A stretch of DNA of 20,836 nt from a virus, in IMG/VR virus record IMGVR_UViG_3300035670_001433, positions 1-20,836 of that record. One strand, given 5' to 3'. The notes beneath the pieces were generated by a model that had not been told where the DNA came from, ran no database searches, and saw only the letters and a program-made list of their open reading frames with translations. A program made the translations under genes and the position numbers. Below are positions 2,592 through 15,672 of the stretch, in pieces; the stretch's first letter is position 1, and the number at the start of each line of letters is the position of its first letter.

Positions 2592-3332
2592 TTATCGAGA
2601 ACAAGTCCTAGCACCTATAAGTGTTTTTTGGACATCACGCTCTCGTGCTTTATAATAATCTGCTATCGCCTCTTCCATCTCCATCATTTCCCTCTTATAC
2701 CTCTCGGCGAGGTCGAATATCTTATTGCGGAGGCAATAGAAGTATGAAGGTCGTAGTGCTAGATACTCATGGTATAAGCCTGCAAAACCAGCCTTCTTAG
2801 TGGTGTCTGTGGTAGCGAAGTATGAACCCTCTCGATTGATGTAGACTTTTAGTCCAGCGGTATAGTTGTAATTTGGTATTGGGTCAAGGAATATTGAGTT
2901 TGCTGTTTTATCGTAGGTGTTAGGATTACCACCCGTATTGAGGCCATCAGTATAGTTAGATGGTGCGCCAGATTGAACATCAACAGGTAGAACTTCAGAA
3001 AAAAGTCCAGTTGAGTCTGCTACAAATACTTTGTACACATCTAAAATCAAGTTTCCATTACTATCAGATGTAAACGAGTAGTCTCTTTGCCCTGAAACGA
3101 TATTAGTGGTGATTATCGGGTAGTCTGTGTGATTTGAATCATCAAACTGCCATGTACCTCCTGCTTGAAAAGCAATATGGAAAACTTGGTCTACTGCCAA
3201 ATTGACATCGCCTGTAAATTGAGCGAGCCTTGTGCTATTACCTGATATATCGCCATCATTAAACCCACAATACTGTTCTATCTTCTGGATTATTCCAGCC
3301 TTGGTTGTTGTGTTTGAGAATTGTATTGACAT
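2592..3332 (-). CDS. Putative neck/head-tail adaptor protein, first gene of tail operon
   Basis: A 246-residue protein starting MSIQFSNTTTKAGIIQKIEQYCG. The mixed alpha/beta body contains the segments WQFDD, YPIITTNIVSGQRDYSF and IFLDPIPNYNYTAGLKVYINREG. A strongly helical C-terminal third follows (LYHEYLALRPSYFYCLRNK, then a charged helix rich in Glu and Arg). This arrangement resembles head-to-tail connector/adaptor proteins of short-tailed phages, but the assignment rests on general pattern and position. Its ATG lies 6 nt downstream of a TATTAT -10 box that carries the phage's repeated upstream element, so it should be expressed from a leaderless or nearly leaderless late transcript. Confidence 0.5.
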   Translation of the reverse strand: MSIQFSNTTTKAGIIQKIEQYCGFNDGDISGNSTRLAQFTGDVNLAVDQVFHIAFQAGGTWQFDDSNHTDYPIITTNIVSGQRDYSFTSDSNGNLILDVYKVFVADSTGLFSEVLPVDVQSGAPSNYTDGLNTGGNPNTYDKTANSIFLDPIPNYNYTAGLKVYINREGSYFATTDTTKKAGFAGLYHEYLALRPSYFYCLRNKIFDLAERYKREMMEMEEAIADYYKARERDVQKTLIGARTCSR

Positions 3333-3338
3333 GCCACA

Positions 3339-3366
3339 ATAATATCAATTTATGTGGTCGGATTAA
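3339..3366 (-). promoter_or_regulatory. Late-class promoter of the tail operon (TTAATCCGACCA - 10 nt - TATTAT)
   Basis: Read on the minus strand, TTAATCCGACCA (3366-3355) is followed by exactly 10 nt and then the -10-like box TATTAT (3344-3339). The ATG of the neck-like gene comes 6 nt later. The same 12-mer with the same spacing occurs at 11696-11669 and 14086-14059. The promoter lies inside the last codons and stop of the upstream glycosyltransferase gene, so it separates the tail genes from the glycan cassette. Confidence 0.75.
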
Positions 3367-4048
3367 GGTGTTTACACTTATTGTATATATAATTTTGCAG
3401 ACTTTCAGAGTTAGGATTAGCCGTTGTGGTTGACATTGAATTAGGATGTCGCCTCCATAATAAGCACACCACGTCACTTACCTTTGATTTGTACCCTTTA
3501 CCTAGTGCCTCAAGCCAGAATAAACGATCCTCCCACCCTTTCTTCATTACAGGATGTTCGTCAAAACCCCCTACATCTACCCACATTTGCTTAGGAAATA
3601 GGGTATTTGAGTAGATAACATTGGTCTTTAGTAGTATTGGTATTGTCGCTTCCCGTGGCCTTGCTGTGTAACTCTCAACTCCAAAGGCCATAAGCCCACA
3701 AGTAACCATAGATTTCTCATCAGCTAGTTTTAAATGTTCCTCCAGGCATCGAGGCTTTAGAATATCATCGGAGTCAAAAGACATTATGTATTTACCTGTA
3801 GCAACCCTGATACCTGCATTACGGGCCGAGGACAGTCCACCATTCTCCTTTTCAATGATGATTATATTCTGGTCAAAGAAGTCCTCCTTAGCTTTCCTCG
3901 CTATGGCAACACTGTCATCAATAGCCCCGTCGGAGACTATGATAATCTCGTGCGCCCTTACAGTCTGGTTGCACACACTCTCTAACGCTTGCCTGAGATA
4001 CTTTCCGTAACTGTAGCAGGGAATGATTACAGAAATCTTGCTCTCCAT
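3350..4048 (-). CDS. Glycosyltransferase family 2
   Basis: A 232-residue GT-A fold enzyme expected to transfer a sugar from a nucleotide-sugar donor. Visible family signatures: VIIPCYSYGKYL at the N-terminus (residues 7-18), IIIVSDGAIDD (about 35-45), ENGGLSSARNAGI (68-80), the metal/donor-binding motif DSDD (92-95), and an acidic GWEDRLFW segment (about 171-178) where GT2 enzymes carry the catalytic base. There is no membrane segment, so it is a soluble cytoplasmic enzyme. The ATG lies 22 nt inside the upstream GT17 gene. It is the last gene of the glycan cassette, and its 3' end carries the tail promoter. The acceptor cannot be told from sequence. Confidence 0.93.
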   Translation of the reverse strand: MESKISVIIPCYSYGKYLRQALESVCNQTVRAHEIIIVSDGAIDDSVAIARKAKEDFFDQNIIIIEKENGGLSSARNAGIRVATGKYIMSFDSDDILKPRCLEEHLKLADEKSMVTCGLMAFGVESYTARPREATIPILLKTNVIYSNTLFPKQMWVDVGGFDEHPVMKKGWEDRLFWLEALGKGYKSKVSDVVCLLWRRHPNSMSTTTANPNSESLQNYIYNKCKHLNPTT

Positions 4049-4851
4049 TTGTTTTTATTTGTTATTAAATACTCTGGTAAATCCTTTTCCTCTACCCACA
4101 TCTTGAAAGGTCTGCCCCTGAAATCTATGCCAGCGTTCACTCGCTCCTCAAGCTTAGGAACTAGGTCATTTACATCATAAGCAGGATGCCCCATAGCCAA
4201 GAGTTTCTGCTTGATACCCTCGACACCGCCCTGATTTCCAAAATGCCAGCCACCATTCTCAACTACGACAAACTCAGTAAGATCGTCAGTCCTTAGATGA
4301 TTTAATATCCCCCCACTTAGTACCTTGTAGTTGCAAGCAATAGTTCCGCTCCAGCCTAGCCAATCTTCATTAGTACGAAGATTAAGATAATACGAATAAG
4401 GAAGCTGTTTTGGCTTATATACAACGTCTTTAGTAAAATCGAGCTTCATGTCTGGATTCCAGAACTCATCTAAGTCTGATATGTAGCAAACATCGTCAGG
4501 CTTTAAATGAGTAAGTGCTTTTCTAACATGTTCTTTTATGTAAAACTCCTTCATCCAACAGAGATGCTCTCTGGTTACGTTAGGACTACTTCTCGCCCAA
4601 CCTAGAATCTTTTGGTCGCTCTTGCTGTCCCAAAAGTCTGTCGGAACGTCTGTAACCTCATGGTAGATAATCTTATGCTTCCACTTAGCGTATCTCCCCA
4701 TGTTGTCCTTAAGTGCTAAATCCTTTTTCTTTCCTGCAAAGGTTTCATTTGCCTCGCATATCACGAAGTAATCTACATGCTTATCAAACATCTCTAACCT
4801 CATCTCTAAGAGGTCGAACTCATTGAAAAAATAAAATATATCGTATGTCAT
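4027..4851 (-). CDS. Glycosyltransferase family 17-like (N-acetylglucosaminyltransferase-like)
   Basis: A 274-residue protein with the GT17 hallmarks: an N-terminal YDIFYFFNEFDLLEMRLE, then VDYFVICEANETFAGK, WKHKIIY, and ISDLDEFWNPD with an acidic DLDE motif (residues 126-129) likely to bind metal and donor. GGWHFGNQGG further on matches the conserved W-H region of the family. Characterised eukaryotic members add the bisecting GlcNAc to N-glycans; bacterial and viral members have various, mostly unknown acceptors. I chose the ATG at 4851, which makes an ATGA overlap with the upstream stop, rather than the start at 4917, which would overlap that gene by 70 nt. No signal peptide or membrane segment is seen. 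Confidence 0.88.
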   Translation of the reverse strand: MTYDIFYFFNEFDLLEMRLEMFDKHVDYFVICEANETFAGKKKDLALKDNMGRYAKWKHKIIYHEVTDVPTDFWDSKSDQKILGWARSSPNVTREHLCWMKEFYIKEHVRKALTHLKPDDVCYISDLDEFWNPDMKLDFTKDVVYKPKQLPYSYYLNLRTNEDWLGWSGTIACNYKVLSGGILNHLRTDDLTEFVVVENGGWHFGNQGGVEGIKQKLLAMGHPAYDVNDLVPKLEERVNAGIDFRGRPFKMWVEEKDLPEYLITNKNKWRARFL

Positions 4852-5411
4852 TTCCAGATTATATACAAAGCTCTCTCGATTGCGTGGCTCTCGGCATTTA
4901 TCTGCGACCAAGAGCAATACTCTAAAAGTTTAGCATAGAACTCCTTAGATCGTTTCAAGATATTCTCCCTCGGAACAATGTAATTCCCACCTGGCGCAAA
5001 AGCTAAATAATCTGGCTTACCAAGCCCCATTAGAGCAGCAAACTCGTTGTAACTACTGAAATATTTATAGGGATATGAATGGAAGTACCAACTGTCGTTC
5101 CTTTCTTCGTATATCCCGTCTACATATCTGCTAACTGGCTCGTATACACCGTGATTTTTAGTTAAAAGCGGCGTAAAACAGGTGTTATTCACTACTTTCT
5201 CGAACTCCTCCACCGTTGTATGCCTCTCTAGGAGGTTATCTTTTACAAATACACACACATCGGGGAGATTATCGTAGTTTTCTACGATAAAAGACATCAT
5301 GGTGCTGATGTTATACCCCACATTCACCCTATCTTTATGGTAGATAACAAAACTATCAGTATATTTCTTCACCCATGAGTAGTCTGACTTGTAATTAGAT
5401 ACAATGAACAT
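4848..5411 (-). CDS. DUF3431-like putative glycosyltransferase
   Basis: A 187-residue protein resembling the DUF3431 group, which tends to occur among surface-polysaccharide genes. Matching features are an N-terminal VSNYKSDYSWVKKY, NVGYNISTMMSFIVENYDNLPD (about 30-51), and FAPGGNYIVPRENIL (138-152) followed by RSKEFYAKLLEY. The C-terminus is ESHAIERALYIIW. It is small and soluble. It overlaps the upstream GT11-like gene by 17 nt and the downstream GT17 gene by 4 nt, so it is translationally coupled within the cassette. The reaction is unknown; a glycosyltransferase-related role is inferred from neighbours and resemblance. Confidence 0.7.
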   Translation of the reverse strand: MFIVSNYKSDYSWVKKYTDSFVIYHKDRVNVGYNISTMMSFIVENYDNLPDVCVFVKDNLLERHTTVEEFEKVVNNTCFTPLLTKNHGVYEPVSRYVDGIYEERNDSWYFHSYPYKYFSSYNEFAALMGLGKPDYLAFAPGGNYIVPRENILKRSKEFYAKLLEYCSWSQINAESHAIERALYIIWK

Positions 5412-6189
5412 AATGGAATCTATGAGTCATGTTCTGATAAAGCTGCCACCTGCTCGTATTGTGCCTTTCCCAATACATCGGAGCTAGAATCAGGTTAGCA
5501 TCACCTAACCAAGCAGGAAGAAACCCAAATGATGAGTTAGATAGTATTAAATACTTTGCGTATCTTACCGACCTCCAGTTAATTCCTATATCTTTTGTAA
5601 TCTTAAAGTCAGGGAAGAACTTTTTAGCCTCGTCTGGATCATCGGTGTGAACCTCGAACTGCATATCTGGGCGTTTACCTTTCATTATGCTAATACACCT
5701 ATCCCAATAACCTTTAGGTAGAAAGAAATCTTTGACGTATTTATATTCACCACCACGAAAGTTTATAACGCATAGATTATCAGGCATCTGCAAAGGTTCA
5801 ACCTTCAACCATTCATTAATCTCTTTTTTCCTGTGCTTGTAGTAGTTCTCGCCCTGTAGGAGTCCATGCACAAGAGTATTGTCCTCTAGGAGGGGTATTT
5901 TAGGGTCATAATCGCCCATTACAGCCCCATCAGGGTATAAGTTGATGTATTCCCTATAATACGATGTAAACCCCTCTGGTAAGGCTTCTGGCACTCCGCC
6001 CTCAACGCTGATTTCACCCCCAACGATAGGCTTTCCCATATCAAGGTTCATGAAGGTTTTACCCTTGAACCTTTCAGGAAACATTACGCCGAAGTCGTAA
6101 CCGTTATCAAGCGCAATGCATCGAGTGGTGACGTAGTTCGCTAACTGATTGCCTAATCCCTGCCCGTTGTACAAAGGTGTCGCTAACAT
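5395..6189 (-). CDS. GT11-like (alpha-1,2-fucosyltransferase-type) glycosyltransferase, divergent
   Basis: A 264-residue GT-B-like protein. It has GLGNQLANYVTTR near the N-terminus (11-23), corresponding to the G-x-LGNQ motif of family 11, and SNSSFGFLPAWLG near the C-terminus (217-229), corresponding to the family's NSSFSWW-type motif. The central GDP-fucose-binding motif, usually H-x-RRGDY, is here NFRGGEY (143-149), so two ligand residues are altered and donor specificity may differ. It overlaps both neighbours (7 nt with the methyltransferase-like gene, 17 nt with the DUF3431-like gene). Size is close to normal for the family. Confidence 0.78.
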   Translation of the reverse strand: MLATPLYNGQGLGNQLANYVTTRCIALDNGYDFGVMFPERFKGKTFMNLDMGKPIVGGEISVEGGVPEALPEGFTSYYREYINLYPDGAVMGDYDPKIPLLEDNTLVHGLLQGENYYKHRKKEINEWLKVEPLQMPDNLCVINFRGGEYKYVKDFFLPKGYWDRCISIMKGKRPDMQFEVHTDDPDEAKKFFPDFKITKDIGINWRSVRYAKYLILSNSSFGFLPAWLGDANLILAPMYWERHNTSRWQLYQNMTHRFHYVHCI

Positions 6190-6692
6190 TTCTTTATCAC
6201 AGTTACGCCGTTGTTATTCGTATACCGTTTAAACATCTTCCACCCACTATTAGCTGCCAAGAACTCCTCTATCGCTGGCCAGATTTCTTTCTCACAAGAT
6301 GTCGTGTCGTGAAAGACAATGTACTTGTTTACTTTATTTGCGTGTCGCTCTAGCTCACCTTTGACCTGATTATAAGTGTGGTCTGTGTCGAGGAATAGCA
6401 TGTCGGTCTGCTCGATATCTACGCTTAAAGTATCAGCCTCTATGAAGGTAAACTTGGTGCCTTTTTCCTTTGCTCGTTCCTCCACCTTAGTGATGTCACC
6501 TCCGTAGTGTGACGGATGTTTATGATCTATAGAAACTAAAATCCCTTTATCAATTCCTTCAAGGAAGGCCCATGACGAAACAATGTACCTAACACCCATC
6601 TCTGTGATGTGAGAACACTCTTTAGCCAAGTCCCGAAGCGTTGGGAGATGTTCGTTAATGTCCGAGTGAGTCTTGCAAAGTTCGTTATACAT
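6183..6692 (-). CDS. SAM-dependent methyltransferase-like / CmcI-like protein
   Basis: A 169-residue protein with a degenerate class I methyltransferase pattern: ITEMGVRYIVSSW (29-41) in place of the glycine-rich SAM loop, VSID (53-56) ending beta 2, MLFLDTDHTYNQV (98-110) around the acidic motif, and YIVFHDT (124-130). The LDTDHTYN...VFHDT pair is typical of small bacterial enzymes related to cephalosporin-hydroxylase-like/methyltransferase-24 proteins found in glycan clusters. It probably modifies a sugar residue. It is coupled to both neighbours (8 nt overlap with the GT2, 7 nt with the GT11-like gene). The exact substrate is unknown. Confidence 0.72.
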   Translation of the reverse strand: MYNELCKTHSDINEHLPTLRDLAKECSHITEMGVRYIVSSWAFLEGIDKGILVSIDHKHPSHYGGDITKVEERAKEKGTKFTFIEADTLSVDIEQTDMLFLDTDHTYNQVKGELERHANKVNKYIVFHDTTSCEKEIWPAIEEFLAANSGWKMFKRYTNNNGVTVIKKC

Positions 6693-7356
6693 ATTTTTGT
6701 TTGAGCATCATTACCTCGTGCCGCTTTACCTCTTCCTTTAGAGTGCTGGTAGTTTGATACTCCGATATCCTGTTTACGATACCAATCCTGTTCGATACCG
6801 TAGGAGGCCCGAACTTAGCAAAGCATCGCTTGTAGTAATCACAGTCCATAAGCCAAATAAGATTCTCATCAAAGGTTAAGTGTCCTTCATTGCGAACAGT
6901 GAGAACAGAAGGGGAACTTATAGTATTAAGGCCAGTGTGGATGAGATGATTGTATCGAGGGAAGAACGGCCTGTAACAAATCATATCGTCTTGTGCGTGT
7001 TCACATGCAGATACAAACCAGTCACCTGCAAAGTTTCTATCTATGTCTTTTAGAGAGTCCTCATCAAAGAGGTAGTCGTCCATGAACAGAACTTTAATCA
7101 AATCCCCTTTAGCTAGGGACATTGCCTTGTTTGTATTTCCACTGATACCTAAAGCCGTATCATTGCGCGAGTAGTTGATGTTTAAGTCCGCAAACTCCTT
7201 ACAAACACTCTCAACGCTTCCGTCTTTTGAGTCATCTGATACGACAACTTCAAAGTCCTTAAACGTCTGCTTTCGTAGCATGTTAAGGCTGTGTCTAAGG
7301 TATTCAGCACCCTTTCCCATCTGCCCGTAAGCAGGAATACACACGCTAATTCTCAT
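6685..7356 (-). CDS. Glycosyltransferase family 2
   Basis: A 223-residue GT-A enzyme. N-terminal ISVCIPAYGQMGKGAEYLRHSL is followed by FEVVVSDDSKDGS (about 35-47), which is the donor-binding segment. GISGNTNKAMSLAKGDLIKVLFMDD has its acidic metal-binding motif at MDD (92-94). After that the protein diverges from typical GT2 enzymes, with HLTFDENLIWLMDCDYYKRC probably serving as the acidic acceptor-side region. It is soluble, without a membrane anchor. The ATG overlaps the upstream GT11 stop by 4 nt. It is distinct in sequence from the other GT2 of the cassette, so it likely makes another linkage. Confidence 0.9.
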   Translation of the reverse strand: MRISVCIPAYGQMGKGAEYLRHSLNMLRKQTFKDFEVVVSDDSKDGSVESVCKEFADLNINYSRNDTALGISGNTNKAMSLAKGDLIKVLFMDDYLFDEDSLKDIDRNFAGDWFVSACEHAQDDMICYRPFFPRYNHLIHTGLNTISSPSVLTVRNEGHLTFDENLIWLMDCDYYKRCFAKFGPPTVSNRIGIVNRISEYQTTSTLKEEVKRHEVMMLKQKYV

Positions 7357-7892
7357 ATTCTAATCCAATTGTTAGGGCATACAGTCCTCTCAATCTTGTC
7401 TGAATACCACTCTTTCGGTGCGACTACTTTGCCTTTTGATAAATAACCACCCCACCAAGAAAAACTACTGTTAGCGATGATTACTGCCTTACAACCTGCC
7501 ATCAGATTAAGATCCGTAACCTCGTCGTTACCTTCGGAGAACTCGAACTGATTGCCCATAAAATGAGCTTTGCACCACTCTATGTCGTCTGAGAACACTA
7601 GGAACTTTTCGTTAGGGAATAGCTCCATAGCCTTCTTATAGTAATCAGTTTTCCAAAGCTGAACGTAGAATGGATTGCCAACGTAATCACCTCGCCTTAC
7701 ATGAATGGCTACTTGGTCTATGGGGACAATATTTTGCCCGTATAACACCTTTATATCCTCCTTAAACTCATCGAACCATGAAGGGTCTTGGAAATAGTAG
7801 TCGGTTTCAAACTTCTTCGAGTATGTATACATAAACGCAAACTGGAACATCTGATTCCCAAGTCTGCCCATAATTTTATGTATAGGAATCAT
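7353..7892 (-). CDS. Compact glycosyltransferase family 11 (alpha-1,2-fucosyltransferase-type)
   Basis: A 179-residue protein carrying the key family-11 motifs: MGRLGNQMFQFAF (8-20), VAIHVRRGDYV (61-71, the GDP-fucose-binding H-x-RRGDY motif), FSDDIEWCK (100-108) and ANSSFSWWGGYL (140-151). Family 11 enzymes transfer fucose from GDP-fucose, usually alpha-1,2 to galactose. At 179 residues it is much shorter than the usual roughly 280-300: the stretch between the first two motifs is reduced to about 40 residues. All motifs are intact and both ends look natural, so it is a compact form rather than a pseudogene. The start follows the upstream stop with no gap (TAAATG). Confidence 0.9.
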   Translation of the reverse strand: MIPIHKIMGRLGNQMFQFAFMYTYSKKFETDYYFQDPSWFDEFKEDIKVLYGQNIVPIDQVAIHVRRGDYVGNPFYVQLWKTDYYKKAMELFPNEKFLVFSDDIEWCKAHFMGNQFEFSEGNDEVTDLNLMAGCKAVIIANSSFSWWGGYLSKGKVVAPKEWYSDKIERTVCPNNWIRI

Positions 7893-8357
7893 TTACTTCT
7901 TCGCCTTAGACGCTCGAATTGACTTTACCTTCTCCTCAATCTCATCAAATACTTCAACGTAGATACCATCTTCTCGATTAACAGTGTGTCGAGCAACCTC
8001 AAACTCATCAAGCTGTTCCTTTACCAATTCAAGGAGAATAGGCTGGAGCTTATTCTTTACAAGCTGTGCCTTCTGCTCAGTTGCTTCAATTGAATCAATC
8101 TCAGGTTGAAACTTCTTAGTAAGCTCTTGAATAACAAACTTCTTTGACTTAATTTCTTCGTTTAGCTTCTGAACCTCTTGGTAGATAGGATCGATAACGG
8201 TGTAATACTCTGCGTTTAGCTTATCGAGGATTGGATTGATTTCCTTCTGGAGTGCTGACAACTCCTTCTGCAACTCAGTTACAGTTTCGTTCTCAATCTT
8301 GATAAGACGCGAACCTTCGTAATTTACCTCAGCCAACAATGCTTTATCTATTTTCAT
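7893..8357 (-). CDS. Coiled-coil protein of unknown function inside the glycan cassette
   Basis: A 154-residue, highly charged, almost wholly helical protein. From about residue 25 to 115 it shows heptad-like spacing of Leu/Ile with Glu/Lys (for example LQKELSALQKEINPILDKLN). It ends in a Lys-rich tail (SIRASKAKK). There is no signal peptide or membrane segment. It sits between the GT-B gene (14 nt overlap) and the compact GT11 (no gap), so it is co-expressed with them. It could be a scaffold for the enzymes or a virion protein displaced into the cassette; nothing in the sequence settles this. Confidence 0.75.
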   Translation of the reverse strand: MKIDKALLAEVNYEGSRLIKIENETVTELQKELSALQKEINPILDKLNAEYYTVIDPIYQEVQKLNEEIKSKKFVIQELTKKFQPEIDSIEATEQKAQLVKNKLQPILLELVKEQLDEFEVARHTVNREDGIYVEVFDEIEEKVKSIRASKAKK

Positions 8358-9447
8358 TTTTTATTCCAACTAACTTATAAATACTTTCCAACCAAACACT
8401 CGCATACGTTTTTATATTGTAGTTTTCTAAGACGTAGTCGTGTGCTTTACATGCAAGCTCCTTATAAAAAGAATACCTGTTCTTGACATCAATTATTGTA
8501 TCATGCCACTGCGCATTTTGTGTCACAATTGTCATGTATGAGTTATCCACACCTTGATACGGGCTTGTTCCATCTTTAAAACCTTGAGCGATTACAGGGA
8601 TTTTAAGTAAGGACATCTCCAAGAACTTTAGGTTAGACTTGCACCTATTAAAGTAACTATCGTGGCGTGGGATTATTGCTACGTCTAGGGCCAACTTAGC
8701 TACTGTTTGCATGTACTCAGTGACTCTCACATACGGATGCCACTCAATGTTTTTTATAGAGTTCCAGAACTGATAGTCCTGCTCCATAAAACTTAGATGT
8801 GTGCCGTCTTTATACTTTATCCCCATAACCACAAGCGTTACATCATCTCGCTTATCTAACTGCTTAATCTGATTCTTTATGTGAATGTAATCGTCGTTTG
8901 TAGTAACCGAGCCTATGAAGCCAATGCGAAACTTACCTGTTGTATTAGGTTTGCAAGGGAACTTGTCGAGCGGATCAATACAGTTCTTTATAACAATTAC
9001 ATTAGGGTTTACTGCCCTGTATTCGTCTGCGAGTATTTCAGTTGATGCGATAGCTCCGTCACAGAGGGCTAGGATTTCATTGGTAAGCTTGCTCATCTCC
9101 ACCGCTATCTTCCTTTGACTATTGTTCTCAAGCCTTTCTAGGATTATCCCCTTACCTACAAGATAGGTGTCATCGTTCTCAAACACTACTTTCTTACCCA
9201 TAGTCTTTAATACTTTTACCAACTCCAAAGTCTCTTTAGTGTTGGGTCGTTGTAGGACAACTATATCTGCGCTCTTGGCTTTATCGACTATCTTAGTATG
9301 AGGAATATCTGTCGCCAACCTTACAAAATCTGAAACCACCATGCTGTTGCTGTAAACTCCTGGAAGATATCCTCGGTAGTAATAACAGAATGGATACTTA
9401 CCTGGTAAAAACAATATCTTACTTCTTGAGTGCGTTAAGGATTGCAT
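8344..9447 (-). CDS. GT-B glycosyltransferase (family 4/1-like)
   Basis: A 367-residue, two-domain enzyme. The N-terminal Rossmann-like half includes ADIVVLQRPNT and KKVVFENDDTYL (86-97). The C-terminal half begins after a linker at FRIGFIGSV (173-181), continues with VTLVVMGI, and carries CKSNLKFLEMSLLKIPVIA (269-287), the donor-binding region with the conserved Glu, as in GT4-type enzymes. It is soluble, with no export signal. The start at 9447 lies 29 nt inside the upstream gene; a later start near the ILFLPGKYPF segment is possible. Likely the first sugar-transfer gene of the cassette in transcription order. Confidence 0.87.
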   Translation of the reverse strand: MQSLTHSRSKILFLPGKYPFCYYYRGYLPGVYSNSMVVSDFVRLATDIPHTKIVDKAKSADIVVLQRPNTKETLELVKVLKTMGKKVVFENDDTYLVGKGIILERLENNSQRKIAVEMSKLTNEILALCDGAIASTEILADEYRAVNPNVIVIKNCIDPLDKFPCKPNTTGKFRIGFIGSVTTNDDYIHIKNQIKQLDKRDDVTLVVMGIKYKDGTHLSFMEQDYQFWNSIKNIEWHPYVRVTEYMQTVAKLALDVAIIPRHDSYFNRCKSNLKFLEMSLLKIPVIAQGFKDGTSPYQGVDNSYMTIVTQNAQWHDTIIDVKNRYSFYKELACKAHDYVLENYNIKTYASVWLESIYKLVGIKNENR

Positions 9448-9802
9448 CTAGTTTGTTTTCCATATTATTAACCTTTGTTTCGAGGACATCTATCTTACTT
9501 GGACTTGTTGGTGTGGACTCTAGCTTTACTTGCTCTATGTTTACTTTAGGAATAGGGGCGGTTCCAGCTCTCATATCTTCTACTTCTTTAGGAACTGATA
9601 TCTCATTGAGACGAGCTTTAGCGGCCTCCTTTTTATCCTCTTGTTTTCGGAGTAGGTCTTTGTATGCGCCTTCATTTACAACCTGCCCGTTTCTAATAAT
9701 CCAACCACCCTTAGATTCATCCAGTAGATTTATAATTTGTCCTTTTGTATTTCGAGTAACGGACTTCTTCGCCATTCTGCCAGCGATATTTATATTTGAC
9801 AT
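9419..9802 (-). CDS. Unknown protein with C-terminal coiled coil, leading the glycan cassette
   Basis: A 127-residue protein. The N-terminal part (residues 10-50) holds KSVTRNTKGQIINLLDESKGGWIIRNGQVVNEGAYKDLLRK-like polar sequence (described, no family recognised). The middle is Pro/Thr-rich. The last 25 residues form a short coiled coil with regularly spaced Leu/Ile/Val and Asn (KVNNMENKLDAILNALKK), as in oligomerisation tips. It lies directly downstream of the capsid gene's terminator and behind its own -10 box, with ATG 6 nt after TATAAT. It could be a head protein or the first gene of the glycan unit. Confidence 0.75.
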   Translation of the reverse strand: MSNINIAGRMAKKSVTRNTKGQIINLLDESKGGWIIRNGQVVNEGAYKDLLRKQEDKKEAAKARLNEISVPKEVEDMRAGTAPIPKVNIEQVKLESTPTSPSKIDVLETKVNNMENKLDAILNALKK

Positions 9803-9808
9803 GATTTA

Positions 9809-9836
9809 ATTATACAACGTGTGACTATTCATGCAA
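9809..9836 (-). promoter_or_regulatory. Sigma70-type promoter of the glycan cassette (TTGCAT - 16 - TATAAT)
   Basis: On the minus strand TTGCAT (9836-9831) and a perfect TATAAT (9814-9809) are separated by 16 nt. The ATG at 9802 follows 6 nt after the -10 box, so the transcript would be leaderless or nearly so. The phage's TTAATCCGACCA element is absent here, so this unit should obey different control from the structural operons. A terminator lies immediately upstream. Confidence 0.7.
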
Positions 9837-9837
9837 C

Positions 9838-9858
9838 AAAAAACCCCCTTTCGGGAGT
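9838..9858 (-). terminator. Rho-independent terminator after the major capsid gene
   Basis: On the minus strand ACTCCC-GAAA-GGGGGT forms a 6-bp stem with one T.G pair and a GNRA-type loop, followed by six T residues. It lies 14 nt after the capsid stop codon and just before the cassette promoter. Confidence 0.85.
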
Positions 9859-9872
9859 CCTTTGTTTTTGGA

Positions 9873-11061
9873 TTAGAGTCCAACTGCAACTGAGTGTGAT
9901 CGCATCTTAACTGCTGAATCATCTCGGTTCTCAACAACACCGTAACAGAGGTCAATGGTAACGAGGTCACCAAGGTACTCATGAACGTATGACTGCTGAA
10001 CTCGGACACCTTCTGAACCAACCATGCCCTTAGTTGCCTTAACTGGCATTGAGAGCCTTGCCCAATGGAAGGTATCTCGGTGAGCGAGGAGGTTGAGTCG
10101 TGCGCCGTTATCTCCAACTGCACCAGCACCAACTGGAACTGCAGGTGAAACAATAACTGGAATCGAGTAGAGAGATCGAGTAGGAGCTTTAGAGCGAGGA
10201 AGTTCAGTAGAAGTATTCTGCCAAAGGGTCATCTTATCAATAGAACCAACCTGTCGATAGAATGTGTTTGGGTGGAATACGAATGCTGTGTCTCCGCCGT
10301 ATACTGGTACTCCTGCGGTCTCAAGGATAGCGATAGCTGCGAGGACAGATGAGTCTGCCATGTTAGCAGTTCCAAGTCCAACTACGTTAGTAGTGATACC
10401 TGTGAACAATGCTGCAATAGCGTCTTCCAAATCCTGTGCAACTTCAAATGCACCTCCCTTAGCAATCTTCTCCTGGAGGTAGTAAGACTTCTTAACCTGT
10501 GCTGCCTCTCGGTCTTCGATAACGAATGAAGCCTCCTTCCATGTTGATACATCGAGGGTAACCTTGGTGTACTCAGGTGAAGAAAGAGTAACTTCGGTGT
10601 TTACGGTCTTCGTGTTAGTCGAAAGAGCTGAAAGGTTTGGAGTAAAGATAGTAGCACCGCCGTCTGCGAGTTCATCTGAGCGGTCAACGAAGAACGCTGC
10701 GAGCTGAAGTTCGTATCGGAAGTAGTCGTTAATCTTCTCTCCCCAAATCTGTGGGATATCTACTGTAAGGTCGCCGCCGTTGCCTCCAGTGAATCCATTA
10801 GTTCCTAACTTTACTGTTTGTTATCGTAAGCTTTTACCGCTTACTTCTTATAGTTCCCTATAAGTTCAGACTATGTCATCTCTTTCGAGTCGGGTATATA
10901 GTCGTTACACATTTATTATAGATATTATGGATCTATCTATAAATTTAGCTCGGCGTTGTCCACTTGTTTCAGTTGGGAGTTTCACCGAATTAGCCCAATT
11001 TTTTACCCTACATCAACTTTTTTGCCCTTTGTTAATGTTCGGTGGCCTTAGGTTAAGCCAT
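9873..11061 (-). CDS. Major capsid protein, gene split by a group I intron (join 9873..10808 and 11056..11061, minus strand)
   Basis: Exon 1 is only ATG GCT (11061-11056); exon 2 is 10808-9873. Together they encode 313 residues starting MALGTNGFTGGNGGDLTVDIPQ. The protein has the look of an HK97-fold coat protein: an N-arm, then IWGEKINDYFRYELQLAAFF, VTLDVSTWKEASFVIEDREAAQ, a spine-helix-like KSYYLQEKIAKGGAFEVAQDLEDAIAAL region, VFHPNTFYRQV, LYSIPVIVSPAVP, and ARLNLLAHRDTFHWAR near the end. Without the intron the exon 2 frame has no ATG or GTG start before its in-frame TAA at 10821-10823; the only alternative, a TTG at 10430, would lose 128 residues. It follows the scaffold-like gene and ends at a strong terminator, as expected for a highly expressed coat gene. 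Confidence 0.9.
10809..11055 (-). ncRNA. Group I self-splicing intron in the major capsid gene (247 nt, no ORF)
   Basis: Paired elements read on the minus strand. P1: exon GGCU with intron GGCC (11047-11044), with the required U.G at the 5' splice site. P10: exon 2 UUAGG with intron CCUAA (11052-11048), directly contiguous with P1 on the guide. P2: CATTAAC/GTTGATG (11037-11031 and 11017-11011). P4: CGGT/GCCG. P6: around ATAGATA/TATCTAT. P7: GACTAT (10903-10898) with ATAGTC (10874-10869). P3: TTGGG/CCCGA. P8: CTC-GAAA-GAG (10889-10880). P9: CTTATAG-GGAA-CTATAAG (10864-10847). P9.1: GTAAGC/GCTTAC (10844-10826). The last intron base is G (10809). The core resembles the intron in T4 td. There is no room for a homing endonuclease. 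Confidence 0.93.
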
Positions 11062-11079
11062 ATTATTTACTTATTTTTA

Positions 11080-11595
11080 TTATCTTCCTTGTGATTCTCT
11101 CCAAAGGGCTTTGTGTTCTTCAGGAGTTAATCCTTTAGATGTAAAGTCTTTGGCTTTCTTGACTGGAGCTGATCCACGGCTAGCAGGAAGTTTTACCTTT
11201 TTTGCCGCTTCTTTTATCGCTAGGAATATTGGGTCTTCTGTACACTCCATCATGGTTTTACCACGGAGCTTTGCGATAGTTTTTAGTTCGCTTAGAAGTT
11301 CATCCGCCATTCCCTGTGACTTCAAGATTCTTGAATCAACTACGTCTTCTGACAAGGGAGCGCTTGTAGTGTCGGCGGTCTTCGTTGGAGCGGATTTTGT
11401 CCTCTTCAACTCAGCTTCCGCCTTCTTTGCTCTAGCGAGTACCTGATTAAACTGTGATTTTGGAACTGTGTCCGCTACCACTGTTTCAGTCTCCTCTTGA
11501 GCAGGAGTTTCATTTGTCTCCTCTGCAACAGTATCTTCAACCACTTCTGGTTCAGGATTCGTGCCTTCCTGTGGCGTAATGTCTGTTTCTGACAT
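11080..11595 (-). CDS. Putative capsid scaffolding protein
   Basis: A 171-residue acidic, low-complexity protein. The first 45 residues are Glu/Thr-rich (ITPQEGTNPEPEVVEDTVAEE-like composition). A charged helix follows (KSQFNQVLARAKKAEAELKR), then a Ser/Thr/Ala linker, and a basic C-terminal region (AIKEAAKKVKLPASRGSAPVKKAK) ending EEHKALWRESQGR. This acidic N-terminus, central coiled-coil-like helix and basic C-terminus, immediately before a capsid gene, is the usual form of phage scaffolds, whose basic end binds the coat. No protease motif is seen. It starts 18 bp upstream of capsid exon 1 and about 67 nt after the late-class promoter. Confidence 0.75.
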   Translation of the reverse strand: MSETDITPQEGTNPEPEVVEDTVAEETNETPAQEETETVVADTVPKSQFNQVLARAKKAEAELKRTKSAPTKTADTTSAPLSEDVVDSRILKSQGMADELLSELKTIAKLRGKTMMECTEDPIFLAIKEAAKKVKLPASRGSAPVKKAKDFTSKGLTPEEHKALWRESQGR

Positions 11596-11668
11596 TTGAT
11601 TGGTGGTTCATGCCTCACACCTGGCGTTAATGACAGATTATGCTTACTGTCGAGCTGATAACATGATT
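11596..11668 (-). other. Untranslated leader of the scaffold/capsid operon with a small hairpin
   Basis: The predicted transcript from the promoter at 11696-11669 has about 65 nt before the scaffold ATG, unlike the leaderless portal and tail units. It holds a 5-bp hairpin GACAG/CTGTC (11651-11647 and 11636-11632) and a possible six-codon ORF, MLSARQ, beginning at 11664. I see no tRNA or riboswitch fold in it. Confidence 0.4.
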
Positions 11669-11696
11669 AGTATATCAAGTCCATTGGTCGGATTAA
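11669..11696 (-). promoter_or_regulatory. Late-class promoter of the scaffold/capsid operon (TTAATCCGACCA - 10 nt - TATACT)
   Basis: On the minus strand TTAATCCGACCA (11696-11685), 10 nt, then TATACT (11674-11669). It is identical in element and spacing to the promoters at 3366 and 14086. The TTAA overlaps the stop codon of the preceding small gene. Confidence 0.72.
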
Positions 11697-11875
11697 CGGG
11701 CGTAGTTTTTAACTATAGAAGTATTGACTTTATTACGCTCCGCAAACTCGTGTATATTGTTCTTAAATATCCCTTGATATCTCTTCAAGAGTCTTTCCAT
11801 TGCTTTACCATCGAGCTTCTTACCGCCGTTATCTCGATTGGTTAGGGGTGTCCTCTGTTCTTTTTGGTATTGCAT
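11693..11875 (-). CDS. Small basic protein of unknown function
   Basis: A 60-residue, Lys/Arg/Asn-rich protein: MQYQKEQRTPLTNRDNGG, then a helical KAMERLLKRYQGIFKNNIHEFAER and NKVNTSIVKNYAR. No family recognised. Its ATG at 11875 lies 47 nt inside the preceding gene, an unusually long overlap for this genome, so the true start could be the internal Met at residue 26 (MERLLKRYQG). It sits at the end of the portal operon, just before the scaffold promoter, and might be a small head-assembly or regulatory protein. Confidence 0.5.
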   Translation of the reverse strand: MQYQKEQRTPLTNRDNGGKKLDGKAMERLLKRYQGIFKNNIHEFAERNKVNTSIVKNYAR

Positions 11876-12053
11876 ATATGATGTCTAGATTCTCGAAAGC
11901 TTTGTCGATAATATCCTTAGCGTCGGCTATGCCTGACACATCACATCTGGTTAGCACTTTATCCTTTGCATACTCACCTAAAAAGGCAAGAATGTAATCT
12001 TGTACTTCCTTTTTAGTAGCTTTATCTGCGTAAAATCTTCCTAATATATCCAT
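11829..12053 (-). CDS. Small protein of unknown function in the portal operon
   Basis: A 74-residue protein: MDILGRFYADKATKKEVQDYILAFLGEYAKDKVLTRCDVSG, then a helical ADAKDIIDKAFENLDIIY and a polar tail. It begins TAATG-coupled to the upstream gene. The composition (alternating charged and hydrophobic residues, predicted all-helical) fits small phage head-region proteins between portal and capsid, but no function can be assigned. Confidence 0.7.
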   Translation of the reverse strand: MDILGRFYADKATKKEVQDYILAFLGEYAKDKVLTRCDVSGIADAKDIIDKAFENLDIIYAIPKRTEDTPNQSR

Positions 12054-12286
12054 TAGTCTATTGGTATTAGCTTTGCTGCCTCAGCCCTTGATAGGTTGCG
12101 ACTTGTGACGTTTGCCTTTACGTTTAACGCCTCTTGAACTGACAAGCCTGTAGTTCCAGCGTAGATGTTAGCTGCAATCTGAGAGCTACGAGGATTTGCT
12201 GTCGTGCCAGCGAGAATGTTTAGACAGTCCTTGTTAGTCCTGTTTGTTGTCAATGCGAGTCTGTTTAGTTCATCTTGTAGTGACAT
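12053..12286 (-). CDS. Small putative virion protein downstream of portal
   Basis: A 77-residue protein beginning MSLQDELNRLALTTNRTNKDCLNILAGTT, followed by the segment QIAANIYAGTTGLSVQEALN and ending SRAEAAKLIPID. The repeated LAGTT / YAGTT motif pair is notable. Such short proteins occur in many uncultured phage genomes next to portal or capsid genes. It is separated from the portal stop by one base and overlaps the next gene as TAATG. Structural role inferred from position only. Confidence 0.7.
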   Translation of the reverse strand: MSLQDELNRLALTTNRTNKDCLNILAGTTANPRSSQIAANIYAGTTGLSVQEALNVKANVTSRNLSRAEAAKLIPID

Positions 12287-12287
12287 A

Positions 12288-14051
12288 TTATACAGTGGTT
12301 AGTTCTTCTACTCCTTGTGCCGCTTGAGTTGCCTGTGCCGCCTGAGCTGATGGCGTAGGCTTGCTAGACTTCAATTGTCCAAACGAGATTGGAACGCCAG
12401 CCATTTCTACGATAGTACCGAATAGCTTTGATAGCACTGGATCTTCAAGAGCTGAGTAAGTTCCAGTTTGAGGATTAAACGTAGAGATAATCGTCTTTAG
12501 GATGCTGTCGAGTGACTGTAGGATTGCTTGCTTGTTCTTTAACTCACCAGTTACGTTAGCTGTGATATGACCTTCAACATCGAGGAAGCCTTCAGGAATC
12601 TTAATCTCTCGTTTGCTACCGTTCTTCCTGAGTGAAGTTTTAACTGACTCCCTGAACTGTGCATCTTGCTCTGGAGTAACTGGCTGTGCGAAAGGGCTAA
12701 GGAGTGCTTCGATAGCTTTGTTCTTTCCTTCGTAATTAGCTACAACCTCGTCAATCAAATCCAATTCTGCATCATCATAATCAGCAACAAGGTTATGTTC
12801 CTTAACTATTCGCTTCTTTAGTTCAGGTAATATCCACTCGTTAAGAATCTCTGTTTGGAAGATTCCCATTTCCTCTCGTCGATACTCAAATGGTGAATTA
12901 GCCACTTGATTAAGTAGGGCGGTCTGTGAGTATGGAGTTCCTGCGGTTGGAGCTTCACCAGTGTTTGCGTCGTAGGTAGAAGACGCTCGGTTGTACTGTG
13001 AGTCCCATAGGTTAATCATATTCTCAATCTGTGGGAGAGCGGAAGGGGAGAGGTTGATAGATGAAATAGACTTACCATCCTCAAGCTCGAAGATGTGTCC
13101 GCTTTTAACGCTAGTGAGTACGTTACCCGACACCTTCTTAGAGTTAGTTGAAAGGACAACTTTACCTGACAAGTCCATAGCGTTTCGCATCATAATCATG
13201 CTGTCGTTAGTCCATGACTGTGACTCAAATCCTTCCTCCCATACGCCTCGGCCTAGTCCTCGCTTTGGAATCCTCTGCCATGCGAGATACTTATACTTCT
13301 CATCAATTGACTTAAGAGTCTCATGATAGAGTCCAAACTTCTTATTGCCTACAATAGCGATGTAGAAACAGTATGTCTTATAAGTATACTGGTCTTCGTC
13401 CTCATTACCTGGCTCGTAGTTAGTAGGGAATGTTCCTGTAATCTCCTTAATCTCAACCTTTGCTGGCTTTCCTTTAAATTGCTTCTTGCACTGGTCTAAT
13501 ACTTCCTCTTTGTTGTCGTAGTCCATCATGGAGAAATCAGCGAGGTTCATGTAGTGAGTCTCGATTACAGCTCCTCCGAGAATGTCTGATGGGTCTACCT
13601 CTACGTTAGTCCAGTCTACAACTTCAATATTGATACCGTCTTCATCCTTTACTTTCTTTACAATTACACCTCCGTATTTAGCACGGGTATAACCTTGTTC
13701 ATTAAGAGACTCTGAGTAGTTAATCTCTTTAAGGAACTGGAATAGCTCCCTGTTGATGATCATGGCTTGAGTGCTGTACTTCAATGTATCAGCCTCAAAT
13801 CGAAGGTCTTTTACGTCTAGGTCTGTGCCTACTTTAGCGGTAGTAACTCGGTAACTTCCAATGTTAAAAAATGGCTTCTCTCGGCCCAACTCATCCTTAT
13901 TACCTGATAAATATGTGCTGTTATCGTAGAACTCGATTGTCCTGATTGTCTCCTTTAGATTATGGGTAAGTCCAGAAGCGACCTCCACTGATTCACTGTA
14001 GGCATCTACAATCTTGTCCAAATCAGCAATGATTTTGTATTCCGTATTCAT
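12288..14051 (-). CDS. Portal protein
   Basis: A 587-residue protein, within the size range of portals of short-tailed and other phages. It forms the dodecameric ring at one capsid vertex through which DNA is packaged, and docks the terminase. Evidence: position directly after TerL, size, mixed alpha/beta segments such as VVDWTNVEVDPSDILGG and YLAWQRIPKRGLGRG, and a long helical region around LNEWILPELKKRIVKEHNL. The C-terminus is Ala/Gln-rich (AQAAQATQAAQG). The start ATG lies 7 nt after a TATAAT box, so its message is predicted to be leaderless. Function is not shown by a single diagnostic motif, but the context is strong. Confidence 0.85.
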   Translation of the reverse strand: MNTEYKIIADLDKIVDAYSESVEVASGLTHNLKETIRTIEFYDNSTYLSGNKDELGREKPFFNIGSYRVTTAKVGTDLDVKDLRFEADTLKYSTQAMIINRELFQFLKEINYSESLNEQGYTRAKYGGVIVKKVKDEDGINIEVVDWTNVEVDPSDILGGAVIETHYMNLADFSMMDYDNKEEVLDQCKKQFKGKPAKVEIKEITGTFPTNYEPGNEDEDQYTYKTYCFYIAIVGNKKFGLYHETLKSIDEKYKYLAWQRIPKRGLGRGVWEEGFESQSWTNDSMIMMRNAMDLSGKVVLSTNSKKVSGNVLTSVKSGHIFELEDGKSISSINLSPSALPQIENMINLWDSQYNRASSTYDANTGEAPTAGTPYSQTALLNQVANSPFEYRREEMGIFQTEILNEWILPELKKRIVKEHNLVADYDDAELDLIDEVVANYEGKNKAIEALLSPFAQPVTPEQDAQFRESVKTSLRKNGSKREIKIPEGFLDVEGHITANVTGELKNKQAILQSLDSILKTIISTFNPQTGTYSALEDPVLSKLFGTIVEMAGVPISFGQLKSSKPTPSAQAAQATQAAQGVEELTTV

Positions 14052-14058
14052 TGCTTGA

Positions 14059-14086
14059 ATTATAGCTAACTAAATGGTCGGATTAA
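14059..14086 (-). promoter_or_regulatory. Late-class promoter of the portal operon (TTAATCCGACCA - 10 nt - TATAAT)
   Basis: On the minus strand TTAATCCGACCA (14086-14075), 10 nt, then a perfect TATAAT (14064-14059), with the portal ATG 7 nt further on. The element overlaps the TerL stop codon. It is the strongest of the three copies because its -10 box is the exact consensus. Confidence 0.78.
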
Positions 14087-15672
14087 CGAGACAGGTTACC
14101 TCCGCTGAAGTTTCTCTGCTGCTGTAGCTCGTATATCTCTAAGTCTGTCATGCCTTTTGGCTTGTGATAGGTTGCAAACTCTTTCATCTGCCAAGCAATG
14201 GCACAAGCGATAAGAAGGTCAAAGTGCCTAGTAGTTAGGCGTGGGTCTTTCTCATCGTCTATGAGGTCGTTTCGTGTGTAACCCTTCAGTTCACTTATGA
14301 GGTCTTTATCGTTGAGTGCTATGTGTCCATTCTGAACAGCTTTAGCTAAAGCATAGAGCATTTTAGGCTTAGTCATGGCGTTAGTGTGCCAGCCGTACTC
14401 TTTAGCAGTGGACGCAATGATAATGGTGTCCTTCTTTGGGGTAATAAAAATATCAGCCTCTAATTGTCTTAGCCTAGCAATCGTAGTATGTCCGTGATTA
14501 TTCTTTTCAGGTGCTACAAGGCAATATCCAAATATCTCTGATTGTCTCTGGATCTCATCACCGAATGTATCGGGGCGGATAGTATTACAGTTATACGTCG
14601 CTACAACCTGAGCAGGGAATTGCTCAAAGTCTATAAACACTGAGGTGGAAGAGTCGAGTCCTACTCCTCCTGCTACATCGTGTCCTCCTGCGTATCTATG
14701 CGATGGGTCAAACTCTTTATAAATTTTAAAGCCACTAATTACTTTAATCGGTTGCAATACTTTTTGATTATCCAATGACTCTCGGTCAAAGAACACATCT
14801 TTAGATGCACTAGGCTTACATAGTCTTTCACCTTCAAAGTCATCGTCGTCTTGTTTCATTTGCTCAACGTCACCCAATGTATACCTTTCAGGCCACATCA
14901 ATACTCCCTCATCGTTAATAATAGGAATGATAAGCACAATCTTCTTAGTAGTTTCCTTAGTAACCAGTGTGTGAACATTGCCTTGCTCTGAGATGTAGTT
15001 ACAGGTATACACACACGCTCCACCTTTTGCTAGTCCAGTCCTCGCTTCTTCCATGTTCGCCCAGATAGCAATTGTTTTAACAGCAGAACGCAACGTAGTC
15101 CTGTTCTCGAAGTCTTCAAACCAAATGAAGTCTGGTCGAGCATCTTCTTGGATAGCTCCTCGTTGGTCAGTTCCTACAGTATCAGCCACAACCTTTATTC
15201 CAGTTGTAGTAGTAAATGAACCCATAGTCTCTTCACGTTTAAGGTCTGTCTTTGAGAATACTTCGGGGTATATATCCGCCACACGCCTATACACGAGCAT
15301 ATTGTATATGTCGGTTGTAATCTGCCTTGAGTTAGTTCCGTCAGCGGATAGAACCTTTACATAGCGGCGAGAGTGCTCTTGGTCGTTGAGAATAACAAAC
15401 CCTAAGAATAGCTTAGTTCTTGCTGTCTTAGCCGCACCTCGGAACGCAATATCAACAAAAGCATTTATCTCTCCTCTGTAAGCCTTTAAGTTATTGAGAT
15501 CTATATCTTTATGAAATGGCGCATCCTTTGATTTAAAGTATTGTGGGAAGAAGTATCTAGCCCAGAGGTTGAACTTAAACAAAACCTTCTCATGTGAATC
15601 AGTAGACTCAAAAGAGAATAAAGCTCTGATTAGCTTAGGGTCATTACTGTTGAGGATTTCTTGGAGTGTCAT
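14083..15672 (-). CDS. terL: Terminase large subunit (packaging ATPase and nuclease)
   Basis: A 529-residue protein. N-terminal ATPase: a Walker A-like FRGAAKT (77-83), where the usual second Gly is replaced, and Walker B PDFIWFED (180-187) with the catalytic Glu/Asp pair. C-terminal RNase H-like nuclease: AGGHDVAGGVGLDSS (328-342, first Asp at 332), VAPEKNNHG (386-394, acidic E389) and HFDLLIACAIAW (483-494, Asp 485), the expected three acidic sites. It cuts concatemers and drives DNA into the prohead through the portal. It overlaps TerS by 29 nt. The start is ATG at 15672 with no SD, and its stop is overlapped by the portal promoter element. Confidence 0.95.
   Translation of the reverse strand: MTLQEILNSNDPKLIRALFSFESTDSHEKVLFKFNLWARYFFPQYFKSKDAPFHKDIDLNNLKAYRGEINAFVDIAFRGAAKTARTKLFLGFVILNDQEHSRRYVKVLSADGTNSRQITTDIYNMLVYRRVADIYPEVFSKTDLKREETMGSFTTTTGIKVVADTVGTDQRGAIQEDARPDFIWFEDFENRTTLRSAVKTIAIWANMEEARTGLAKGGACVYTCNYISEQGNVHTLVTKETTKKIVLIIPIINDEGVLMWPERYTLGDVEQMKQDDDDFEGERLCKPSASKDVFFDRESLDNQKVLQPIKVISGFKIYKEFDPSHRYAGGHDVAGGVGLDSSTSVFIDFEQFPAQVVATYNCNTIRPDTFGDEIQRQSEIFGYCLVAPEKNNHGHTTIARLRQLEADIFITPKKDTIIIASTAKEYGWHTNAMTKPKMLYALAKAVQNGHIALNDKDLISELKGYTRNDLIDDEKDPRLTTRHFDLLIACAIAWQMKEFATYHKPKGMTDLEIYELQQQRNFSGGNLSR

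Follow-up and report, generated by a model that had tools for sequence, protein, structure and literature searches.

The stretch of DNA analysed here (hereafter the window; 20,836 nt) corresponded to positions 1-20,836 of the IMG/VR virus record IMGVR_UViG_3300035670_001433, from an uncultured phage. Its minus strand carried, in order, terS, terL, a portal gene, small genes and genes for a scaffold, the major capsid protein (MCP), the small protein p127, a GT-B glycosyltransferase (GT) and a coiled-coil protein, followed by GT11a, GT2b, a methyltransferase-like gene (MT), GT11b, DUF3431, GT17, GT2a, tail246, tail136 and fibre genes; the names scaffold, portal and tail246 were given from position and from homology inside the lineage. 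The genes from GT-B to GT2a formed a putative glycan-modification cassette of nine intact open reading frames (ORFs), arranged head to tail at 3350-9447 on the minus strand between capsid and tail genes, as the original prediction, made from the letters of the sequence, had described. The PHROGs search placed terminases and the MCP upstream of it and a tail-fibre gene downstream, with the corrected GT17 start neighbouring cassette genes abutted or had overlaps of 4-22 nt, and no GC change was found at the borders. The nine genes had been taken as one unit. Judging from related phage loci (numbered L002, L003 and so on), GT-B and the coiled-coil gene instead make up a fixed core and the other seven genes an insert, because 12 loci keep the two core genes with an empty insert site (L039, L040, L041, L045, L046, L079, L084, L093, L105, L107, L111 and L115).

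The core GT-B gene (8344-9447, minus strand) encoded a GT4-like glycosyltransferase according to PHROGs (phrog_7162, 1.4e-32) and structure prediction. The window sequence alone matched no Pfam model, and a Pfam GT-B model was matched by up to 45 of the 64 GT-B family members. The AlphaFold2 (AF2) model built from these 64 sequences (pLDDT 94.7, pTM 0.92) resembled GT4-type structures such as GlgM, PglA and BshA in Foldseek, with the protein glycosyltransferase SdgB lower in the list, and residues N267, K270, S271, K274 and E277 were invariant in the alignment. As modelled, the protein is a GT4-like enzyme with a GT-B fold and conserved C-terminal donor-site residues, which agrees with its original assignment. 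The second core gene (7893-8357, minus strand), with homologues in 79 loci, encoded a protein predicted by AF2 to consist of a 92-residue helix, a beta hairpin and a final helix (pLDDT 94.1), for which comparison with a library of viral structures returned no confident hit. This coiled-coil protein is probably a structural or assembly protein, and its gene, formerly counted among the glycan genes, belongs to the conserved structural core.

The association of the core with the capsid gene was examined from both sides. A GT-B profile search confirmed 194 relatives, and among the best 80 of the 194, nearly all those with upstream sequence had an MCP of the same family one to five genes before GT-B. 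In a test of the coupling free of bias from GT-B, the MCP of the relative L003 was used as the sole query and recovered 22 loci, several of them near-duplicates. GT-B started 201-605 nt behind the MCP gene in 21 of these 22 MCP-anchored loci, including those whose MCPs shared only about 40% identity; the sole exception was L003, which ended 462 nt past the MCP gene, inside p127. The order in the relatives was MCP, small protein, GT-B, coiled coil, variable part and tail246. The insert lay between GT-B and the coiled-coil gene in L063, L091 and L092, where the coiled-coil gene adjoined tail246, and the coiled-coil gene preceded GT-B in L088, which weakened the candidate role of the coiled-coil protein as a dedicated partner of the glycosyltransferase. 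In L057, repeat-rich ORFs of the SxEHxxxxSxA type (155-628, 11093-11719 and 12193-12615), which by eye resemble homing-endonuclease-type insertions, were found beside a split portal gene, GT-B and the coiled-coil gene.

The seven insert genes, all on the minus strand, encoded putative enzymes of several families. GT11a (7353-7892), a compact alpha-1,2-fucosyltransferase-like protein, matched PF01531 (3.8e-26; 92.5 bits against a cut-off of 23.9) over its C-terminal part only (profile positions 129-295 of 298), and the motifs IHVRRGDY and NSSFSWW were kept in 11 orthologues. The two GT2 enzymes matched PF00535, with 1.2e-15 for GT2b (6685-7356) and 1.8e-33 for GT2a (3350-4048), the last insert gene, whose product shared about 60% identity with its L036 counterpart and also matched phrog_22739 and phrog_841 ('GtrB-like'). 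DUF3431 (4848-5411) matched PF11913 (1.9e-8), and GT17 (4027-4851) matched PF04724 (3.6e-14; 53.1 bits against a cut-off of 26), with the best stretch covering 68 of 348 profile positions. The GT17 start was moved from TTG 4917 to ATG 4851, as five aligned relatives begin at residue M23 of the longer ORF. The GT2, GT17, GT11 and DUF3431 identities read from the sequence were therefore all borne out by scores above the Pfam cut-offs.

The two remaining assignments were borne out in part. GT11b (5395-6189, minus strand), a divergent protein, matched no Pfam profile, GT11 included, and is called GT11-like rather than GT11 because only phrog_2644 (8.7e-9), a PHROG common to GT11a, matched; it carried GLGNQL and NFRGGEY motifs. 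MT (6183-6692, minus strand), with orthologues in L036, L053, L042 and others, was class I methyltransferase-like from a weak match to PF13578 (3.2e-4, below the cut-off) and is probably a sugar O-methyltransferase, as far as sequence goes. NCBIfam returned nothing above its curated cut-offs. None of the cassette proteins had a transmembrane (TM)-like segment, and neither a flippase nor a polymerase was found, so that the soluble multi-step glycan pathway proposed originally, with its GT11 and methyltransferase-like components, is upheld. The downstream border of the insert was tail246 (2592-3332, minus strand), a conserved gene placed by its position among head-tail or tail genes; it had no Pfam match, and in about 50 loci a homologue came right after either the core or the insert.

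The seven insert genes occurred in the same order in L036 (with the near-identical L037 and L047), L053, L119 and L131/L198; L055 and L056 had the same order except that MT was missing from its usual place. Overall, about ten other distinct loci of the lineage, from many samples, repeated the order between the same phage genes. Additional genes were interleaved in several of them, including epimerase/GDP-mannose dehydratase-like genes (L002, L030, L036, L053, L055), a DegT aminotransferase (L002, L056), a nucleotidyltransferase (L042), an FkbM methyltransferase (L098), a second Methyltransf_24 (L055) and DUF5672 (L056). Among 11 distinct GT17 loci of the lineage, GT11b preceded GT17 in all 11, GT11a preceded GT11b in 10 of 10, and DUF3431 lay between GT11b and GT17 in 8 of 8. 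A much larger glycan insert of about 14 genes, lying between GT-B and the coiled-coil gene, occupied the same site in L091 (11050-19466); by eye, its products included epimerase-, deacetylase-, acetyltransferase- and aminotransferase-like proteins.

Identity of GT-B tracked that of the MCP, and identities of GT11a and GT2b did not. Compared with the window, L098 shared 42% identity in the portal, 38% in GT-B and 62% in GT11a; L098 and L110 shared 72% in the MCP, 69% in GT-B and 45% in GT11a; and L110 and L002 shared 42% in the MCP, 40% in GT-B and 72% in GT2b. Different cassettes were also present under one IMG sample number (3300000405; L055 and L098). These patterns indicate that insert genes are swapped across lineages. 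Between the window and L029, pN/pS was 0.19/0.82 for GT-B, 0.14/0.66 for the coiled coil and 0.12/0.77 for GT11a, which points to purifying selection on all three, with synonymous sites near saturation; dN/dS between L036 and L047 was uninformative because these contigs are nearly identical.

Parts of the insert were also found outside the lineage. In 60 more distinct GT17 loci without the lineage MCP or GT-B, GT11b was nearby in 43, GT11a in 31 and DUF3431 in 31, and GT11b preceded GT17 in 40 of the 43. The set stood directly before terminase-like and SU10-portal-like genes in L160, before a gene block similar to that of L160 in L182, and beside apparent tail genes in L169, and it also occurred in contigs of 90-200 kb. 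As its parts recur both in other lineage contigs and in many unrelated phages, the gene set is not unique to the window, contrary to the initial impression of a set without parallel. Nor are GT11 and GT17 rare among uncultivated phages, as had been supposed, with at least 567 and at least 239 confirmed matches in IMG/VR, respectively; rarity held for GT17 in isolates, where 7 of 50,697 phage records carried it. The isolates with a GT11b-GT17 pair were the Synechococcus phages S-B05, S-B43, RN05-S, RB11-B and S-H68, and in RN05-S the pair was part of a cluster of about 20 sugar genes. No description of the gene set as a set was found in the open-licence papers searched.

Upstream of the cassette, the MCP gene (9873-11061, minus strand; phrog_267) was interrupted by a group I intron without an ORF (10809-11055; 247 nt), located directly after codon 2 between exon 1 (11061-11056, ATG GCT) and exon 2 (10808-9873). 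The intron matched Rfam RF00028 at 10847-11064 (59.6 bits, E 4.2e-13), and the joined frame encoded a 313-aa protein that could be aligned with the L003 MCP of equal length. Gene callers would miss the MCP start owing to such an intron. No gathering-level match to a group I intron was found in the 15 relatives scanned; capsid-gene introns are known in cluster J mycobacteriophages (PMC3706429). In L042, the MCP ORF started late (271 aa against 313), yet a tblastn match began at 2075, and the start region (2075-2202) may contain a frameshift, an insertion or a sequence error.

A hairpin with a T tract (about 9858-9838) lay behind the MCP gene and was followed by a TATAAT box (9814-9809), 6 nt before the start codon of p127 (9419-9802, minus strand). 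The same succession, with a TATAAT-like box 6-8 nt before p127, was present in the window, L030, L031, L036, L041, L053 and L056, and a strong -10 box occurred 4-10 nt before the start in 11 of 69 loci, compared with 2.7% of random positions. A generic promoter scan performed at chance level (17 found, 17.6 expected) and did not list the element at 9809-9858 (minus strand). The hairpin is probably the end of the MCP transcript and the TATAAT box the start of the cassette operon, which would then begin one gene earlier than the nine-gene set, at p127; the operon originally proposed from overlapping frames stands in its frames and probably not in its extent. Together, p127 and the cassette may form a separate, possibly leaderless transcription unit. 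A Shine-Dalgarno-like motif preceded few of the labelled genes (0 of 16 in the window), a hint only, as the starts were called automatically.

The best explanation of the locus, and a reasonably probable one, is a virion glycosylation system in two layers. It builds on the gene identities, the coupling of GT-B to the capsid gene, the modular insertion and swapping, the intact frames, under purifying selection in the genes compared, and the lack of any membrane component, all of which were observed. In the first layer, GT-B, inherited with the capsid gene, would attach the first sugar, or the first few, to a virion protein; the MCP, p127, the coiled-coil protein and a tail protein are candidates from the same gene block. 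In the second, swappable layer, GT2b, GT11a, GT11b, GT17 and GT2a would use nucleotide sugars in the cytoplasm to lengthen this stub, with the addition of one or more fucose-type residues, and the methyltransferase would cap the glycan. The glycan would be displayed on the particle, where its alteration would change the way the virion is recognised by receptors, defences or predators. The acceptor, the order of the sugars, the donor specificities, the fucose transfer and the benefit are what we infer for such a system.

The locus is a real conserved system, apparently of a known kind (virion glycosylation) in a new arrangement, in which the capsid-linked core is fixed and the outer module can be swapped. 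To our knowledge, experiments have demonstrated phage virion glycosylation in a few isolates only. A bolder version, possible rather than probable, is that in this large uncultured tailed-phage lineage an obligate GT-B, coupled to the capsid, initiates a virion glycan and an exchangeable cassette supplies the outer glycan, the two together making a phage serotype locus, parts of the GT11-GT2-GT11b-DUF3431-GT17 series circulating between unrelated phages as a coat pathway. Such a locus would have its analogues in the O-antigen loci of bacteria and in chlorovirus capsid glycans. If so, sugar coats would be a common and fast-evolving trait of environmental phages, with a bearing on receptor use, predation and immune recognition. 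From the module one would further expect fucose-type, methylated glycans of an unusual sort and a part for the DUF3431 family in the pathway.

Among known systems, the locus would work most like the capsid glycosylation of cluster O (Corndog-type) mycobacteriophages; this is a functional likeness rather than membership, because none of the characterised enzymes tested had detectable homology to GT-B. Like the Corndog/Che8 type, the window has phage-encoded soluble glycosyltransferases and a methyltransferase (here a weak match), and, as in cluster O, they lie within the head gene block; in the cluster O phage Schuy, an O-methyltransferase and three GT genes stood between the portal and protease/MCP genes. 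Enzymes of the cluster O/F type reportedly modify proteins of the capsid and tail tube and make neutralizing-antibody responses weaker (PMC11600133, citing Freeman 2023; PMC12363180). In contrast to the window, which has six glycosyltransferases, the mycobacteriophages have three and no GT11, GT17 or DUF3431, and the Che8 (cluster F) cassette is located at the genome end. The Che8 enzymes were a GT25-like gp110 (PF01755), a weakly GT2-like gp109 and gp108 with GT2 and methyltransferase parts; no cassette protein of the window matched PF01755.

Chloroviruses also build a capsid glycan with virus-encoded glycosyltransferases, and its core is conserved among all chloroviruses (PBCV-1; PMC7826918). 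The core-plus-variable layout of the window, with its predicted glycan, is analogous, but chloroviruses are eukaryotic viruses with an unrelated capsid and N-linked glycans. In the podovirus ctQWt234 (MW202801; L116, 8510-13173), a 26% identical GT-B stood between the MCP and a phage (tail) stabilization gene, with accessory genes that differ from those of the window (radical SAM, GT, PhyH, methyltransferase and NodB-like) and an MCP not recognised by the window-lineage profile. The gtrABC serotype-conversion systems share phage-encoded glycan modification and the 'GtrB-like' PHROGs of GT2a; the window differs in having no GtrA flippase, no TM segment, no visible link to lysogeny and more glycosyltransferases, and gtr-type conversion was ruled out by the lack of membrane proteins.

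Several points weigh against virion glycosylation. No acceptor was pinned down: p127 is a candidate virion protein and glycan acceptor with homologues of various lengths in most relatives, and its Ser/Thr-rich linker was rejected as a universal acceptor because it is not conserved. GT-B had no detectable relation to Che8 gp108 (hhalign probability 0.7%), and the key Che8 enzyme, gp110, is of another type (GT25-like). Gene position alone does not prove a substrate. Two further points also speak for the main rival, in which the enzymes would, late in infection, alter a glycan of the host surface or its precursor in the cytoplasm, and so mask receptors against superinfection or free progeny from debris. 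The insert parts are common to phages with unrelated capsids, a distribution that gives no indication of a single fixed acceptor on the virion. Moreover, authors read similar cyanophage clusters (S-SCSM1 in the literature) as cell-surface genes of the host cell wall or lipopolysaccharide (LPS) (PMC9602691). The corresponding clusters of Synechococcus phages RN05-S, S-B05 and S-B43 had adjacent GT11b and GT17 homologues (35% and 28% identity) and GT2, GT11, methyltransferase, epimerase and aminotransferase genes, but these phages are T4-like, of about 200 kb, and the cluster lies near tRNA genes, not beside the MCP gene.

The glycosyltransferase, epimerase and methyltransferase families are likewise those of O-antigen and exopolysaccharide loci. 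Host-surface remodelling is nevertheless unlikely: a flippase, a polymerase, an undecaprenyl-linked membrane glycosyltransferase and TM proteins were all missing, and it does not predict that, throughout the lineage, GT-B remains tied to the MCP gene as the other genes are exchanged. Virion glycosylation is preferred to it because this coupling held in all relatives with enough sequence; of the two roles originally thought likeliest, the coupling favours the virion one, and receptor masking survives within the rival.

Rather less probable is a division of labour in which GT-B by itself glycosylates a virion protein, whereas the insert encodes another pathway, directed perhaps at a host glycan or a small molecule, that merely occupies a recombination-tolerant site. 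Many relatives do keep GT-B without an insert, and insert genes occur elsewhere without GT-B; against this, the two share an operon with overlapping frames, and in the lineage the insert was always beside GT-B and the coiled-coil gene, or between them in several loci. Hypermodification of DNA, with glycosyltransferases acting on modified genome bases against restriction, has a precedent in phages (Pyle 2024, as cited in PMC12619734) and is very improbable here: PF00303 (thymidylate synthase/hydroxymethylase) was found in 0 of 20 related records, mostly fragments and not searched for other base-hydroxyl routes, compared with 9 of 14 control genomes, and a group of seven to nine enzymes beside head and tail genes would be out of the ordinary for such a role. 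Misassembly, or the capture of a polysaccharide locus from a host, a reservation raised with the original prediction and suggested by gene types shared with bacterial polysaccharide loci, is practically excluded by the recurrence described above and by the steady GC across the borders.

The window MCP had no match among the 50,697 phage records. Searching for a host with the MCP profile returned one 7.3-kb contig of the MAG Tenericutes ADurb.Bin239, probably a free phage binned by chance, since none of the other 278 genomes of that order matched. The large terminase (14083-15672, minus strand) shared 54-69% identity with the phages L004-L028, in which the MCP and GT-B of the window were mostly unrecognised, with a 26% identical GT-B in L020; the packaging and head modules are mosaic. 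Finally, a small ORF with LNxLAGTTxxxxQEAxN-like units lay in the portal-scaffold gap of the window (12053-12286, minus strand), and an 857-aa ORF at the same position in L098 (5271-7844) started with a unit of this type.

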